From Microbulbifer thermotolerans (lineage in GTDB: Bacteria; Pseudomonadota; Gammaproteobacteria; Pseudomonadales; Cellvibrionaceae), in contig NZ_FOKT01000002.1 in NCBI RefSeq assembly GCF_900112305.1, positions 372,001 to 436,000 of the forward strand: DNA of 64,000 nt, given 5' to 3'. The notes beneath the pieces were generated by a model, which saw only the letters and a list, made by a program, of their open reading frames with translations, made no database searches and was not told where the DNA came from. Below, in pieces: positions 101-60,321 of the stretch (its first letter is position 1; every line of letters begins with the position of its first letter). The position numbers and the translations under genes are program-made.

Positions 101-628
101 CTATTTCGCGGGATTGGCCGAAACATGCTTAAGCCGCGCCCGACCGCTCTTTGACACCATCACTTCAGCAATCCCCCCTTTGCGCAAATCCGTTTCCAGC
201 CCCAGAGCCTTTTCCTTAGGCGCGAAATAGGCCTCGATGCCATAGCGGACTCTGTAGCTACTGATTGCACCCCGGAACCCGCTACCCGCAATCCTGCCAC
301 GCAGAAATCTGCCCTGCTGTGGTTTTTTCAGACTGACACCGGCAAACCGGTAGATACCACGCCGGTCAGCCGTAAGTGCAACATAAATCACCTCCCCTTC
401 GCGCAGCCTTTTCCCCGCTGGAAAGAGTGCGATATCCAAGTGAGAAATTTCGTACTCCAGGCGCGCGTAGTTACCGCGAAACAGTGAACGCGGGTCCACC
501 GGTATCGCCTCCAGACGGATTGCCTCTCCAGTCCACAGTGGCATTTGCGCACTCAGATACATGCCAATCAAAGTCAGAAACTGAAAGCCAATGGCGGCGG
601 CGAGACCGAGCAGGATTTTCCGCTTCAT
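101..628 (-). CDS. GDYXXLXY-domain membrane-anchored protein
   Basis: The protein is about 175 residues. It opens with a single hydrophobic segment (residues ~5-25, after M-K-R-K), then a domain containing F-R-G-N-Y-A-R-L-E-Y, a variant of the GDYXXLXY signature with Asn in place of Asp. Proteins of this family are commonly encoded directly after DUF2157 membrane proteins, as here, but their biochemical role is not established. The ATG at 628 was chosen because it overlaps the stop of the upstream DUF2157 gene as ATGA, a translational-coupling arrangement; a longer TTG-started frame to 661 would overlap more and lacks support. Likely exposed to the periplasm. Confidence 0.85.
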   Translation of the reverse strand: MKRKILLGLAAAIGFQFLTLIGMYLSAQMPLWTGEAIRLEAIPVDPRSLFRGNYARLEYEISHLDIALFPAGKRLREGEVIYVALTADRRGIYRFAGVSLKKPQQGRFLRGRIAGSGFRGAISSYRVRYGIEAYFAPKEKALGLETDLRKGGIAEVMVSKSGRARLKHVSANPAK

Positions 629-2839: not shown

Positions 2840-4426
2840 ATGTTGGACGCCAATCTGAAACAGCAACTGGACACCTACCTGCGCAATATCATCGAGCCAA
2901 TCGAACTGCGTGTGTCCGGTGACAACACACCTAAATCCAAAGAGCTCGAGACCCTGGCCGATGAAATCGCCAGTCTCTCTGACAAAATAGAAACCCGGCA
3001 AGGCAACGGCAAACGCACACCGAGCATGGCTATCGCCCGTAAAGGCGAAGAAGCCCGTGTAAGCTTCGCTGGTATTCCCCTGGGACACGAATTCACCTCT
3101 CTGGTGCTCGCCCTGCTGCAAACGGGCGGCCACCCAGCCAAGGCCGACCCGGAATTGCTGGAGCAAATCCGCAATTTGGAGGGCGAATACCACTTCGAAA
3201 CCTATATTTCATTGTCGTGCCAAAACTGCCCGGACGTGGTGCAGGCCCTCAACCTGATGGCGACACTGAACCCGAATATCACCCATGAAATGATCGACGG
3301 TGCACTCTTCCAGGAGGAAGTTGAACAGCACAATATTATGGCCGTACCCTCCGTTTACCTGAATGGCGAACACTTCGCCCAGGGTCGTATGACTCTGCAG
3401 GAAATTGTCGCTAAGCTCGATACCAATGCGGCCAAACGCGAAGCCGAAACACTGAATGAAAAAGCGCCTTACGACTTATTAGTTGTAGGTGGTGGCCCGG
3501 CGGGAGCCGCAGCGGCTATCTACGCGGCACGCAAAGGCATCCGCACCGGACTGGTCGCGGAACGCTTCGGCGGACAGGTCATGGATACCGTAGGTATTGA
3601 AAACTTTATCTCTGTTCCCTACACCGAAGGCCCCAAACTCGCCGCCAGTCTGGAGCAGCATGTCAAAGAATACGGCGTGGATATTATTACCGGTCAACGT
3701 GCAGCGAATTTGAGCCGCAATCAACTACTTGACCTTGAACTACAGAGCGGTGCCACCCTGCAAAGCCGTGCGATAGTGCTCGCCACTGGCGCCCGCTGGA
3801 GACAACTGGGCGTTCCCGGTGAAGAGGAATACAAAACCCGTGGCGTCGCTTACTGCCCTCACTGCGATGGCCCCTTCTTCAAAGGTAAACACGTGGCGGT
3901 GATCGGCGGCGGCAACTCCGGCATAGAAGCGGCAATTGATCTCGCCGGTATTGTCAAACATGTTACCGTGCTGGAATTCGCCGACACCTTACGCGCCGAC
4001 GAAGTACTGGTACGCAAGGCCGAATCCATGGATAACATCGACATCATCACCAATGCACAAACCACCGAAATACTCGGTGACGGCAGCAAGGTGAACGGCC
4101 TCCGCTACACCGATCGGGTCAGTGGTGAAAGCAAGCAGCTGGAACTGGCTGGTGTCTTCGTGCAAATCGGCCTGGTCCCCAACACGGAATGGCTGCAGGA
4201 TTCGGAGGTGGAACGCAACCGTCTGGGGGAAATCGTGATCAACGAACGCGGTGCCACCAGCCTGCCCGGTGTCTACGCCGCAGGCGACGCAACCACAGTG
4301 CCCTACAAACAGATTATTATCTCCATGGGCGCTGGCGCTACCGCCGCCCTGGGCGCCTTTGATTATCTGATCCGTACTTCCGCGGAAACGGAAACAAATG
4401 AGGTACCGGCAGCGGCTTACGGCTAA
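2840..4426 (+). CDS. ahpF: alkyl hydroperoxide reductase subunit F
   Basis: AhpF is the NADH- and FAD-dependent disulfide reductase that passes electrons to AhpC. In this 528-residue protein the N-terminal tandem-thioredoxin domain carries the redox pair Cys127/Cys130 (S-C-Q-N-C-P). The FAD-binding glycine motif G-G-G-P-A-G lies near 217-222, the second CxxC is Cys339/Cys342 (Y-C-P-H-C-D-G), and the NADH-binding G-G-G-N-S-G follows near 356. The length agrees with the ~520-residue family. The ATG at 2840 was chosen because the protein then starts M-L-D-A-N-L-K, as in other AhpF; an upstream in-frame start would run through the terminator hairpin. A second terminator follows the stop. Confidence 0.97.
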
Positions 4427-4806: not shown

Positions 4807-4910
4807 CTAAGGAAGGTCTGAATAACCCCTCCATTTCATAGTGTTCATGAAATTTTTTACGTTGAAGCTAAATTTTTTTAGATTCCTTCCCAAAACTGAT
4901 CATTTTATTG

Positions 4911-4940
4911 CCTGAAATCCGCTTTCAAGCGGATTTCAGG
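4911..4940. repeat. 14-bp perfect inverted repeat downstream of the transposase pseudogene
   Basis: CCTGAAATCCGCTT (4911-4924) and AAGCGGATTTCAGG (4927-4940) are perfect reverse complements separated by TC. The hairpin begins 10 bases beyond the transposase stop (minus strand). No T-tract follows in either direction, so it may be a structural part of the element rather than a simple terminator. Confidence 0.75.
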
Positions 4941-4950
4941 CACACTGGCC

Positions 4951-5893
4951 CTAGGCCAGCAGATATTTTTGACAGCGAAGTAAGTTCGCCAACCCCGATA
5001 ACACATAAAGGCGATTGGTGTTTTTCGCCAAACCGAGATAGCGAATCTTGCTGTAACCAAACATGCGTTTGATATAAAAGAAAGCATGCTCTACTTTGTC
5101 CCGAACACTGGCCTTTATCTTCTCTGCTTTTTTGTATGTGAACAACCAAGCTTTTTACGTGAGCCTGGGCGCATACCAATAAACCATTCCAGGTTCCGTT
5201 TTTTAAGCTCTTTAGCTTCTTTGCGCCACCATAGCCTGCGTCGGCCCAAACTCGTTGTTCATCGCCGTGCAATAACTTGTGTGCCACATTCAGGTCGTGT
5301 TCGTTCTCTGGTGTTGTTTCTACACTGTGTATCAGCCCCAGAGACTCATCTACGCCAATGTGCATTTTCATGCCGAAATGCCACTCCTTGCCTTTCCTAG
5401 TCTGATGCATTTCTGGATCTAGAGCACCTTTCTTATTCTTGGTTGAGCTGGGAGAAGAAATGATAGTGGCATCTACAATACTGCCTTCGCGTAGTATCAA
5501 GCCGTGCTGATCAAGATGTTTGTTGATTTTTTGGAACAGCTTCTTGCCCAGATTGTGTTTCTCCAACAAGTGCCGAAAATTTAGGATTGTTGTTTCATCC
5601 GGGATTTTGTCCAAGCGGACACCGGCGAATCGGCGCATGGACTCGATTTCGTACAGGGCATCCTCCATTGCCAGATCGCTCAGGTTATAAACCAGCTGCA
5701 TAATGTGAATACGCAACATCATAGACAGTGGATAGGGAGGGCGACCTATTCCCCCACGGGCATAGTGCTTGGCTATAGGTGTCTCCAACTGTTTCCAAGG
5801 CAATAGCTTATCCAGATGTTCGAGAAAGAGTTCCCGTCGTGTCTTCCGCTTTTTGGTTGTGTATTCTGCTTCGGCAAAAGTCAGTTGGCTCAT
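4951..5893 (-). pseudogene. IS5-type DDE transposase, two frameshifts
   Basis: The N-terminal two thirds read cleanly from the ATG at 5893: R-P-P-Y-P-L-S-M-M-L-R-I-H near 50-62, then D-A-T-I-I (first DDE aspartate) and W-A-D-A-G-Y-G-G-A (second aspartate region). Near 5205-5215 the frame breaks; the expected continuation I-G-M-R-P-G-S-R-K-K-L sits in a second frame. Near 5150-5160 it breaks again; the expected C-terminus A-S-V-R-D-K-V-E-H-A-F-F-Y-I-K-R-M-F-G-Y (the glutamate region) is in the third frame, ending at 4951. Three consecutive segments of one IS5-type transposase thus occupy three frames, so no active enzyme can be made. Confidence 0.88.
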
Positions 5894-5905
5894 AGATTTA
5901 CCTAA

Positions 5906-6119
5906 GGAGCCTCTGATTAATTCATTTCCTGGTGGCAGAGGTTCTTCGGGGGCGGATGTGAAGCTCAGGTGATAGGACGGACATTTCGAAACCGTCGGAT
6001 ACAGGGATGTATCCGACGGAGCTACAGGGAAGTACTCGCGCGTTTTCGAAATATCCGTCCTATTGCCTGAGCGTCCCGGAACCTACTTATTGTGTTCACG
6101 CGAATTAATCAGAGGTTCC
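5906..6119. mobile_element. MITE-like palindromic repeat, copy 1
   Basis: This 214-bp non-coding element has ends GGAGCCTCTGATTAATT (5906-5922) and its reverse-complement match AATTAATCAGAGGTTCC (6103-6119). Inside are nested inverted repeats: AGGTTC (5939-5944) with GAACCT (6079-6084); a ~29-base arm at 5964-5992 with 6042-6071, which share GGACGGA/TCCGTCC and TTTCGAAA cores; and a perfect 12-bp stem CCGTCGGATACA (5992-6003) with its complement (6008-6019) around GGGA. It would fold into one long hairpin. It is closely similar along its whole length to 29861-30073. Flanks are CTAA and TTAG. No open frame is conserved between copies. Confidence 0.9.
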
Positions 6120-14898: not shown

Positions 14899-14913
14899 GG
14901 AACCTCTGATTAA
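14899..14913 (+). repeat. solo IS5-type repeat end
   Basis: GGAACCTCTGATTAA is identical to the terminal sequence of the repeat at 29861. It sits 18 bases after the helicase stop with no matching partner end nearby. It is probably a remnant of a decayed element, or the end of a diverged one extending towards 15000. Confidence 0.6.
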
Positions 14914-15017
14914 GTCGCTTCGTGACAGTGAACGATACTAGTTGAGGCCAGATGGCAAACTCAGGCGCGAAATGGGAATAGCGCAACGGCCTCCAGCAAA
15001 TTCATACCGTACACGCC

Positions 15018-20106: not shown

Positions 20107-20204
20107 GGAACCTCAGAATAATTCGCTGGGGTGCGGTAATTGGCTTGGGAGCGCACAGGCCTTAATTTCCTTTACTGCCAATAAACGCCTTAATCAGAGA
20201 AGCC
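20107..20204. mobile_element. short repeat with IS5-type ends abutting the nudC stop codon
   Basis: The left end is GGAACCTCAGAATAATTCGC (20107-20126), nearly the same as the end of the 29861/5906 repeat. The right end reads TTAATCAGAGAAGCC (20190-20204), its inverted partner. The flanks are CTAT and CTAA, both YTAR-like. The element is 98 bp with a diverged interior. The right flank C-T-A contains the nudC stop codon (20205-20207), so insertion happened exactly at the gene end. Confidence 0.65.
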
Positions 20205-24639: not shown

Positions 24640-24735
24640 TGCGTAGTCCAGGTGGCGTACTGAGTAGTGGCAATGGATACAGGGAAAGTATCCGTGCGTT
24701 TTCGAATGATTTATCCCGCTACCTCAGCGCGCCTG
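24640..24735. repeat. diverged fragment of the palindromic repeat family
   Basis: Between nhaB and dnaQ, the stretch around 24680-24707 (ACAGGGAAAGTATCCGTGCG followed by TTTTCGAAT) parallels the central part of the 29861 repeat (ACAGGGAAGTACTCGTGCG followed by TTTTCGAAA). A local stem GGATAC/GTATCC is present. The typical ends are missing. Confidence 0.55.
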
Positions 24736-24772
24736 AACAGGCTACTGGCTCGCGCGAATGAAAGGGACACCT

Positions 24773-29709: not shown

Positions 29710-29860
29710 CCGCCTCATGGCGGTAAAGACACCTTCGGACCAAATAAGTAGCTCAGCCCACTAAAGTCCCACGCCCATGAATTAAAGGTTTTCTCAAGCG
29801 AGCGAGTATTTGCCCAGCCCCTGACTCCGACAATTTCAAAACGCCCAACCTGCCACCTAG

Positions 29861-30073
29861 GGAACCTCTGATTAATTTACTTTCTGGTGGTAGAGGTTCT
29901 TCCGGGGCGGATGTGAAGCTTAGGTGACAGGACGGATACTCCGAAACCATCGGGGACAGAGATGCATCCATCGGAGCCACAGGGAAGTACTCGTGCGTTT
30001 TCGAAATGTCCGTCCTATTGCCTGAGTGCCCCGGAACCTAGCATAGTGTTCACGCGAATTAATCAGAGGCTCC
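29861..30073. mobile_element. MITE-like palindromic repeat, copy 2 (intact, CTAG flanks)
   Basis: This 213-bp non-coding element has ends GGAACCTCTGATTAATT and AATTAATCAGAGGCTCC. It is flanked on both sides by CTAG (29857-29860 and 30074-30077), a direct 4-bp duplication of the YTAR type expected from IS5-family transposition. The interior matches the 5906-6119 copy in order and sequence: a GGACGGA arm, a central stem around GATGCATC, TTTCGAAA, TCCGTCC and CCCCGGAACCT. It carries no open frame. It is most simply a miniature element moved in trans by an IS5-type transposase. Confidence 0.92.
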
Positions 30074-30131
30074 CTAGCCGAGAAAGCTGTCAGCTCTTTA
30101 AGGAGAGCCCCTACCTAGCACGCTAGCATGC

Positions 30132-48905: not shown

Positions 48906-49086
48906 GGAAGCCTCTGGCCGATTTATCTGCTCACAATCCAAGATGCTTCGCGCCCACATGTGAAGCGCTGGTGATGGGAGGAGATTTCGACACCGCCGGA
49001 TACAAAGCCGCTTCCAAACGGCAATACTTTTGCCTGAGCACACCGAGTCAGTTATACAGCACTCAAGGGGAAACATCAGAGCCCGC
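48906..49086. mobile_element. degenerate copy of the MITE-like palindromic repeat (copy 3)
   Basis: Beginning with GAAGCCTCTG after TTAG (48903-48906), the order of matches with copy 1 is kept. GTGAAGC and GGTGATGGGA are followed by GATTTCGACACCGCCGGATACA (against ATTTCGAAACCGTCGGATACA). Further on come TTTTGCCTGAGC and ATCAGAGCCC near the right end. The palindrome is partly ruined, so this is an old insertion between thpR and the next terminator. Confidence 0.7.
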
Positions 49087-56940: not shown

Positions 56941-57000
56941 TCGGGAGAGAAGCTCAGGTGATAGGATACCTATCCCACCACCCGAGCCTCCCTGACCTAT
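56941..57000. repeat. fragment of the palindromic repeat family
   Basis: The string GAAGCTCAGGTGATAGGA (around 56949-56966) matches the left arm of copy 1 exactly for 18 bases. It is followed by a local stem GATAGG-ATA-CCTATC. The element ends are missing. Confidence 0.55.
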
Positions 57001-59445: not shown

Positions 59446-60268
59446 GCAGTACCTGCAACGCTTTGGCGGTATCGCCCGCCTCTACGGTGAAGATGCCCTA
59501 CCGATATTGCATAGCGCCCACTTCGTAGTGATCGGGGTAGGTGGCGTCGGCAGTTGGACAGCCGAGGCCTTGGCCAGAAGTGGCGTCGGACGTATCACTT
59601 TGATTGATCTGGACGACGTCTGTATCACCAACAGCAACCGGCAGAGTCACGCTCTCACCGACACCATCGGCCGCATCAAGGTGGATGTCATGGCGCAGCG
59701 GCTCCGCAAGATCAACCCGGAGATCAAGGTACACACGGAAGAAGAGTTTATCGCCGCGGACAATTTCTCCGAGCTGCTCGATCCATACAGGCGCCCCATC
59801 GATGTGGTCATTGATGCCATAGACGCAGCTCGGGTCAAGGCTGCACTGATCGCCTACTGCAAGGCCCGCAAACTGAGGCTCGTTACGGTCGGCTCGGCCG
59901 GCGGCAAGCGGGATCCTCGCCTGATCGACAGCGCCGACCTGGGCCGGACGACCAACGATCCCATGCTGGCCAAGGTGCGCAGCCATTTGTATCGCTTCCA
60001 CAACTTTCAAAAGTCCAGCAAGCGCCAATTCGGGGTCGACGCGATCTATTCCAGGGAACCCATGGTTTATCCCCAACCGGACGGCCGTGTCTGCCAGCAG
60101 AAAAGTGTTATGCAGGACGGAGTAAAACTCGACTGCAGCGGCGGTTTTGGCGCCGCCACCATGGTCACAGGCACCTTCGGTTTCACGGCGGCAGCACGCG
60201 GCATAGAGCGGCTACTGCAGCGAGCCCGGGCGGCTGCCGCCAAGGAACCTCTCGCAGCCACTGAATAA
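59435..60268 (+). CDS. tcdA: tRNA threonylcarbamoyladenosine dehydratase (CsdL)
   Basis: A 277-residue E1-like enzyme that cyclises t6A37 in tRNA. The ATP-binding motif V-I-G-V-G-G-V-G-S-W lies near 32-41, followed by L-I-D-L-D-D-V-C-I-T-N-S-N-R-Q-S-H. The C-terminal membrane-like stretch G-G-F-G-A-A-T-M-V-T-G-T-F-G is typical. In E. coli the partner genes are csdA and csdE, and here the fused csdA-csdE gene lies convergently 53 bases away. Overlaps the DUF393 gene by 11 bases. Confidence 0.95.
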   Translation: MLTEQYLQRFGGIARLYGEDALPILHSAHFVVIGVGGVGSWTAEALARSGVGRITLIDLDDVCITNSNRQSHALTDTIGRIKVDVMAQRLRKINPEIKVHTEEEFIAADNFSELLDPYRRPIDVVIDAIDAARVKAALIAYCKARKLRLVTVGSAGGKRDPRLIDSADLGRTTNDPMLAKVRSHLYRFHNFQKSSKRQFGVDAIYSREPMVYPQPDGRVCQQKSVMQDGVKLDCSGGFGAATMVTGTFGFTAAARGIERLLQRARAAAAKEPLAATE

Positions 60269-60295
60269 TATGAGTAAGCACTGTAGTTGATTCCG

Positions 60296-60321
60296 GGGCG
60301 CTCACTTAAGCAAAAGCGCCC
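60296..60321. terminator. hairpin between convergent tcdA and csdA-csdE
   Basis: GGGCGCT (60296-60302) pairs with AGCGCCC (60315-60321) in the 52-base gap between the two convergent genes; its right arm touches the csdA stop codon. There is no T-tract, so its strength is uncertain. Confidence 0.4.

Follow-up and report, generated by a model that had tools for sequence, protein, structure and literature searches.

The window analyzed here is a 64,000-nucleotide stretch of the Microbulbifer thermotolerans genome (contig NZ_FOKT01000002.1, positions 372,001 to 436,000). It carries two full-length copies of a palindromic miniature inverted-repeat element (MITE) of about 213 bp, several fragments of the same element and the remains of an IS5-like insertion sequence (IS). 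One of the full-length copies, that at 29861, sits between two convergent genes. The features are as follows.

29857 to 29860, no strand: left target duplication, CTAG, read from the sequence
29861 to 30073, plus strand: full-length MITE copy, 86.9% identical to copy 5906
30074 to 30077, no strand: right target duplication, CTAG, read from the sequence
5906 to 6119, plus strand: second full-length MITE copy, read from the sequence
4811 to 5893, minus strand: degenerate IS5-like element with its end at 4811 and a frameshifted ORF at 4925 to 5893 (PF01609, E = 6e-19; tblastn pieces in three frames)
14899 to 14965, plus strand: truncated MITE, left part (77 to 81% over 67 nt to several copies)
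24678 to 24738, plus strand: interior MITE fragment (77% over 60 to 61 nt to several copies)
48946 to 49005, plus strand: degenerate MITE fragment (79 to 85% over 48 to 66 nt to several copies)
56947 to 56967, plus strand: short MITE fragment from the core left arm (21/21 nt identical to several copies)
60256 to 60304, minus strand: right-end MITE fragment, new relative to the initial annotation (73% to copy 29861; 24 matches, self included)

The two full-length copies align over their whole length, as the initial annotation had claimed, and copy 29861 is 86 to 89% identical to its other top matches. The duplication expected at the target is perfect at copy 29861 (CTAG/CTAG), and the flanks of copy 5906 are unequal (CTAA/TTAG). 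The idea that each unit folds into one long hairpin agrees with the RNA fold of copy 29861 (-87.5 kcal/mol, z = -4.87 versus 200 shuffles). A genome-wide family had been suspected from the density of traces, and it was found: 45 matches in the organism's own assembly (3.92 Mb, 30 contigs) when 40 of 234 candidates were scored, and 119 dispersed matches (63 forward, 56 reverse) when a 37-nt stretch of the interior served as the pattern and as many as 3 mismatches were tolerated; the same pattern reversed gave 0.

For a closer view of the ends, we sampled 80 places in this genome, 3 of them contig ends. The resulting 82 stretches, which include the window and one search locus, hold 86 core instances, and 2 of these are cut by the end of a stretch, leaving 84 analyzable copies. 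Allowing up to 4 mismatches in 15, IS5-type ends flank 76 copies on both sides, 6 on one side and 2 on neither; among the 76, the 4-bp flanks are identical in 55 (48 YTAR, 7 other) and differ in 21, in line with the proposed IS5-type ends and YTAR duplications. These noncoding, multicopy units, with GGAACC ends next to YTAR, are an IS5-type MITE family. The first observation is thus confirmed, and its interpretation as a whole is partly supported. Lineage specificity holds for the IS5-wrapped unit, with no full-length match in 95 other genomes (best 8 or fewer candidates each), and fails for the interior, which is found beyond the lineage. Searches of plasmids, of phages and with one exact viral pattern returned no match.

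The list of shorter traces survived in part. Those at 48906, 14899, 24640 and 56941 are real partial copies, with 40, 51, 58 and 33 BLAST matches, respectively, self included, in a search of the window together with 264 kb from the same genome. In that same search, 20107 to 20204 and 29695 each matched itself alone, and we therefore regard both as sequences that only resemble MITE ends; the former is a 98-bp unit with IS5-like ends and an interior unrelated to the MITE. The supposed lone end at 4811 is part of the frameshifted IS5-like transposase element rather than of a MITE.

A candidate partner for the MITE is an IS5-group IS in the same genome. It is truncated where contigs C12 and C28 end, and the two pieces agree at 98% in a comparison of 306 bp; the end of this IS, which follows a CTAG, is GGAACCTCTGATCAACTC. 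In a congener (G033), a full-length relative is bounded by GGAACCTCTGAATAAGTC and GGAACCTCTGATCAACTC, has TTAG next to each end and encodes a transposase of 316 aa (NCBIfam IS5_4, NF033581; E = 1e-106). The end type of this partner is GGAACCTCTGA(A/T)(T/C)AA, and the terminal inverted repeats are common to the MITE and the IS. We posit that the nonautonomous MITE would be moved by the transposase of an IS with this kind of terminal repeat.

The IS5-like element in the window has a different end, at 4811, from that of the MITE. Its transposase starts 12 bp from copy 5906; ACCTAA precedes both the element (4811 to 5905) and copy 5906, which lacks matching flanks, and the two may be related by mutual insertion or recombination. 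Elsewhere in the genome, contigs C5 and C6 (L044, 1 to 480, and L045) both start within a second DDE transposase gene, broken at identical coordinates, which probably belongs to another multicopy IS that breaks the assembly.

The interior core and its distribution

When the MITE consensus was searched against 96 genomes (own included, best 8 or fewer candidates each), 26 matched, and in 24 of the 25 other matching genomes the matches were confined to query positions 48 to 176. The remaining genome, G041, matched only at positions 160 to 211, which may be a right-end MITE fragment. The core, at about positions 55 to 172, has a nested structure made up of an outer stem, two hairpins and a box of the TTTCGAAA type. 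The stem varies and covaries, and both of the hairpins at its top have ANGGAN hexaloops. The initial annotation had not foreseen that this interior is an element in its own right, with a wider distribution than the MITE. In the window, a model of the core (R1) places it as follows.

29910 to 30037, plus strand: twin-hairpin core, decayed (R1, 97.1 bits versus 134.9 for copy 5906)
5955 to 6082, plus strand: intact twin-hairpin core (R1, E = 4e-32, this copy being in the R1 alignment; loop-masked model R2, E = 7e-9)

Model R2 did not match the core of copy 29861 at E ≤ 1.

Paired base changes in the arms had been anticipated, and they are abundant across genera. In an alignment of 30 sequences (6 own and 24 of 28 relatives' loci), RNAalifold gave 42 pairs, 30 of them with changes on both sides; alignment A3 left out loci L068 to L071. 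In a 44-pair version, 96.7% of cells are paired, a value that 0 of 500 shuffles equaled, and slid controls reach 37 to 44%. Two of the family columns carry conserved tandem G.T. The arms pair with each other (local score ≥ 10) in 46/46 family elements versus 53/223 swapped arms and in 126/134 class elements versus 41/670, at a median likeness between left arms of 50% in the family set and 32% in the class set. For one further alignment, A4, elements were selected because 16 or more of their 20 outer pairs form, and we claim no covariation from it. Three congener loci (L069, L070 and L071) hold variant cores outside model R1, in which the right half differs, with GGGCGCCTAGCCC after the GGA hairpins.

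How widely does this core occur? Model R1 found matches in 97 of the 120 genomes searched in the family, M. thermotolerans and some sequence donors of the model among them, with the best 28 or fewer matches scored per genome and many genomes at 28, and the loop-masked model R2 matched 61 of 194 order genomes at E ≤ 1e-4; such genome counts refer to the best-scoring matches per genome, and the loci are mostly the best-scoring ones. A twin-loop pattern run on named genomes returned at least 113 stretches, and all 80 titles listed are Gammaproteobacteria, including Halomonas, Marinobacter, Microbulbifer, Methylococcaceae, Ectothiorhodospira, Shewanella and Pectobacterium. A second pattern matched 23 of 398 genomes of the phylum, all of the same class or closer and none outside the class. 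Those 23 contain 340 matches, up to 56 per genome, against 2 for the reversed control in all 398, and the pattern misses variants, including that of M. thermotolerans itself, which is one pattern base short and yields 0 matches. In the samples searched, the core was found only in Gammaproteobacteria.

Some elements are clustered. Same-strand arrays occur in G185 (C1:94445 to 95379, five matches 227 to 229 bp apart) and in L158 (181 to 5102, same-strand neighbors 146 to 159 bp apart). Opposite-orientation pairs occur in L124 (4004 to 4276), L149 (7365 to 7642), L172 (7002 to 7273) and L193 (3422 to 3756); their centers lie about 165 to 230 bp apart and their arms differ, as in REP dimers.

We are close to certain of the joint statement that the unit is a MITE and that it holds a captured core. 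The opposite view, that this is an ordinary IS5 MITE and that its palindromic interior carries no meaning, having arisen as a by-product of its origin, draws on the near-neutral drift of the copies in this genome, loops included, and on the lack of a full-length relative in the 95 other genomes (best 8 or fewer candidates each). It is already contradicted for the core, because both the family and the class have interiors that lack these ends, with many compensatory changes and fixed loops; it stands only for the role of the copies in this one genome, and overall we give it very little credence.

The ANGGAN loops and the CsrA reading

The elements of the twin-loop set were found via their loops, so the conservation of those loops is no evidence. 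Model R2 was made for this reason, from 22 elements in which both octamers CANGGANG were replaced by N (16 positions masked). Among its 30 loci, 29 are in register: loop 1 has GGA in 29/29 and the leading A in 27/29, and loop 2 has GGA in 28/29, the exception (L247) having a GGA shifted by one base. A separate reading of the 30th locus (L241) showed that both of its loops contain GGA and that its loop 1 is a pentaloop. The N positions of ANGGAN vary among these loci, and the hexaloop is closed by a base pair on the stem; at loop 1, 25 loci have C-G as the closing pair, three have G-C and one is unpaired there, and at loop 2 a T-A pair closes the loop in two. In 178 of 180 elements, the two GGAs are 22 to 24 nt apart, although the finder allowed 16 to 31. 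A distance of 22 to 24 nt suits one CsrA dimer. In the window, the loops read as follows, from the sequence and the R1 alignment.

29958 to 29963, plus strand: loop 1 of copy 29861, AGAGAT, GGA lost
29981 to 29986, plus strand: loop 2 of copy 29861, AGGGAA, an intact ANGGAN hexaloop
6003 to 6008, plus strand: hexaloop 1 of copy 5906, AGGGAT, C-G closed
6026 to 6031, plus strand: hexaloop 2 of copy 5906, AGGGAA, C-G closed

In the sections of PMC7652899 drawn on here, the CsrA SELEX consensus is RUACARGGAUGU, with six-nt loops and AC/GU pairing in 44 of 55 ligands; RsmE NMR structures show an ANGGAN hexaloop; and very stable hairpins may disadvantage CsrA. Judged by sequence, the conserved twin hairpins are the published CsrA/RsmE hairpin motif, present twice. 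The genome has one csrA gene. We would expect with good confidence that an intact copy is bound by CsrA in vitro. The possible disadvantage of very stable hairpins counts against the CsrA reading, and so does the partial pairing of the loop 2 GGA in the consensus RNA fold (unpaired probabilities of 0.15, 0.63 and 1.0 for its three bases).

Stem mismatches on the GGA strand favor G.T over A.C by 81:14 in own copies, 79:7 in the family and 143:40 in the class. Because G.T far exceeds A.C there, the GGA strand seems to have been selected to fold, as RNA or as single-stranded DNA. Within M. thermotolerans, individual copies look neutral, which also counts against the CsrA reading: in 79 near-full copies, the loop A and GGA letters have 6 private changes in 632 positions, which is not significantly rarer than in the remainder of the element (Fisher p = 0.39). 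Depending on the letter, 75 to 79 of the 79 copies retain the GGA bases, whereas the N positions differ among copies: in 12 of them the first N of loop 1 is A.

Genomic context and strand

Genes were called as longest ORFs only, with the element masked. After 76 elements were dropped as orthologous or overlapping and 26 were left without an assigned context, 155 elements comprised 53 convergent, 23 divergent, 42 sense and 37 antisense placements. The excess of convergent over divergent sites is significant when pooled (p = 0.0008) and stands at 18:2 in the genus and family. Among 74 MITEs of M. thermotolerans, 24 are convergent, 13 divergent, 13 sense and 24 antisense, and 8 more have no assigned context. 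No sense-strand preference is found (pooled, 42:37; own MITEs, 13:24), which argues against a simple cis-regulatory role of the kind raised by the initial annotation's suggestion that the folded interior may act on neighboring transcripts; a cis-acting element on the sense strand was considered and is weakened by this lack of orientation bias relative to genes. What is left may be titration in trans, effects at 3' ends or a reader other than CsrA.

An Rfam scan of the window gave no match but a tRNA. In relatives, the Rfam family RF02770 (Ysr224, a Yersinia sRNA going by its title, Yersinia sRNA 224; cutoff, 70 bits) matches one element in Samsonia (L148, 84.7 bits) and one in Pectobacterium (L166, 72.2 bits), and matches several other elements weakly (19 to 25 bits); it is below gathering on the window and on the non-enterobacterial loci scanned. 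The alignments lie at 4184 to 4290 (plus) in L148 and 338 to 444 (minus) in L166, on the GGA-less strand. The family thus models 107 nt of the strand opposite our ANGGAN loops. If the Ysr224 model represents a real transcript, at least one member would be made from the GGA-less strand. This counts against the CsrA reading, and because of it we lowered our estimate that CsrA binding is the reason for loop conservation from slightly above to slightly below an even chance.

The same strand would suit an element acting at RNA 3' ends, or a terminator-like hairpin, possibly on the GGA-less strand and without a CsrA role. The convergent excess, pooled and in the genus and family, fits this proposal as well, as does the position of copy 29861 between convergent genes. 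However, it leaves unexplained why two ANGGAN loops are fixed on one strand and why G.T is in excess on the GGA strand, and we consider it rather unlikely.

The context data also bear on the possibility that the interior is a REP/REPIN-like element, mobilized as single-stranded DNA by a Y1 (RAYT-type) transposase with the loops as its signal. Many copies, close opposite-orientation pairs (L124, L149 and L172), a bias toward convergent genes and strand-specific folding, which suits single-stranded DNA equally, are all consistent with such an origin, and Y1_Tnp is found in 50 of 58 genomes, own included (one weak match, E = 1.2e-5). However, no Y1_Tnp was found in congeners G011, G021 and G035, which have some of the best core matches, and the 10 Y1_Tnp loci, with up to 1.5 kb on each side, held no element by loop expression, R1 or R2. 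Replication strand is unbiased as well (46:40 leading versus lagging, among the matches listed in eight single-contig genomes, with the origin assumed at the contig start). REP recognition by RAYT is of the tag-plus-stem kind, unlike an element in which the stem and closing pair of hairpin 1 are free and the loop is fixed. A RAYT/REPIN origin is weakened by the missing Y1_Tnp in congeners with good cores and by the lack of elements near Y1_Tnp, and we hold it to be improbable.

In total, we favor a model, to which we assign a probability of roughly 0.55, in which an IS5-type MITE carries a captured twin-CsrA-hairpin cargo. We propose that a nonautonomous IS5-group MITE captured a member of a gammaproteobacterial palindromic repeat and that the captured repeat was amplified to more than 100 copies in this genome. 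As RNA, the two ANGGAN hexaloops of the cargo, about 23 nt apart, would offer two high-affinity sites to one CsrA/RsmA dimer. Read-through transcripts of the GGA strand would then dock CsrA at many scattered sites, and the effect may be titration or the protection or processing of RNA 3' ends.

The prevailing view is that dedicated small RNAs largely set CsrA activity. We speculate, as a tentative generalization that we hold to be somewhat doubtful, that Gammaproteobacteria carry widespread, high-copy CsrA-dimer docking hairpins near gene 3' ends, spread independently by unrelated transposons. If this were true, mobile CsrA sponges could determine or buffer how much free CsrA is present in a genome, transposition would directly change the capacity of a global regulator, and titration studies and target predictions in many gammaproteobacteria would have to count dozens to more than 100 repeats per genome.

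Comparison with known repeats

Like IS5-group MITEs, our unit is short and gene-less and has terminal repeats and a short target duplication in common with an IS; it differs from them in carrying a wider-spread structured repeat as cargo. Other IS5-group MITEs are known. A precedent for such cargo is QMITE2 of Coxiella burnetii, in which, according to parts of a review (PMC10969869), a GTAG REP palindrome lies inside a MITE; that REP type differs from our core.

A close known relative of the core is the YPAL/RU-2 repeat of Yersinia. In excerpts of the RU-2 paper (PMC2759123), one printed RU-2 sequence contains this core; its loops are CAAGGATG and CATGGATG, and its GGAs stand 24 nt apart within a nested palindrome, as in ours. 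YPAL/RU-2 elements are likewise repeated, intergenic and MITE-like, although they are 167 to 168 bp long with TA ends and TA duplications, as reported for enterobacterial elements (PMC2759123, in part), whereas our units have IS5-type ends and YTAR. Two MITE types, IS5-type here and TA-type in Yersinia, seem to have captured the same core independently. Ysr224, in turn, seems to represent the opposite strand of a YPAL-type repeat.

Also similar are the CGTC-1 heterodimers of Halothiobacillus neapolitanus, which, in portions of PMC3733652, consist of paired hairpins inside 41-bp palindromes, like our core, with an 'ACC--attcacgGGT' tract that resembles our ACC(GTC)...ATTCACG. According to the same portions, CGTC REPs have no dedicated transposase, and REPs in general occupy convergent or unidirectional sites. 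CGTC-1 is grouped there with mainly alphaproteobacterial repeats and has loops of 4 to 5 nt, versus our hexaloops (PMC3733652). Going by the short printed consensus, the CGTC-1 dimers probably belong to the same class as the core.

CsrA has 0 occurrences in the RU-2 paper (PMC2759123), the CGTC REP paper (PMC3733652) and the QMITE2 review (PMC10969869), and the open-license literature on CsrA with MITEs or repeats yielded nothing pertinent. The repeat type is therefore partly known, and its class-wide spread, ANGGAN loops and possible CsrA binding are what we found unstated in the open-license literature. CsrB-type small RNAs, in extracts of PMC7652899, present repeated GGA hairpin loops as CsrA sites, like our core; they are dedicated genes, whereas our repeat is dispersed, with two putative sites per unit and no known promoter. 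If the generalization above is true, the orphan repeats YPAL, Ysr224 and perhaps the CGTC dimers would gain one shared biochemical reading.
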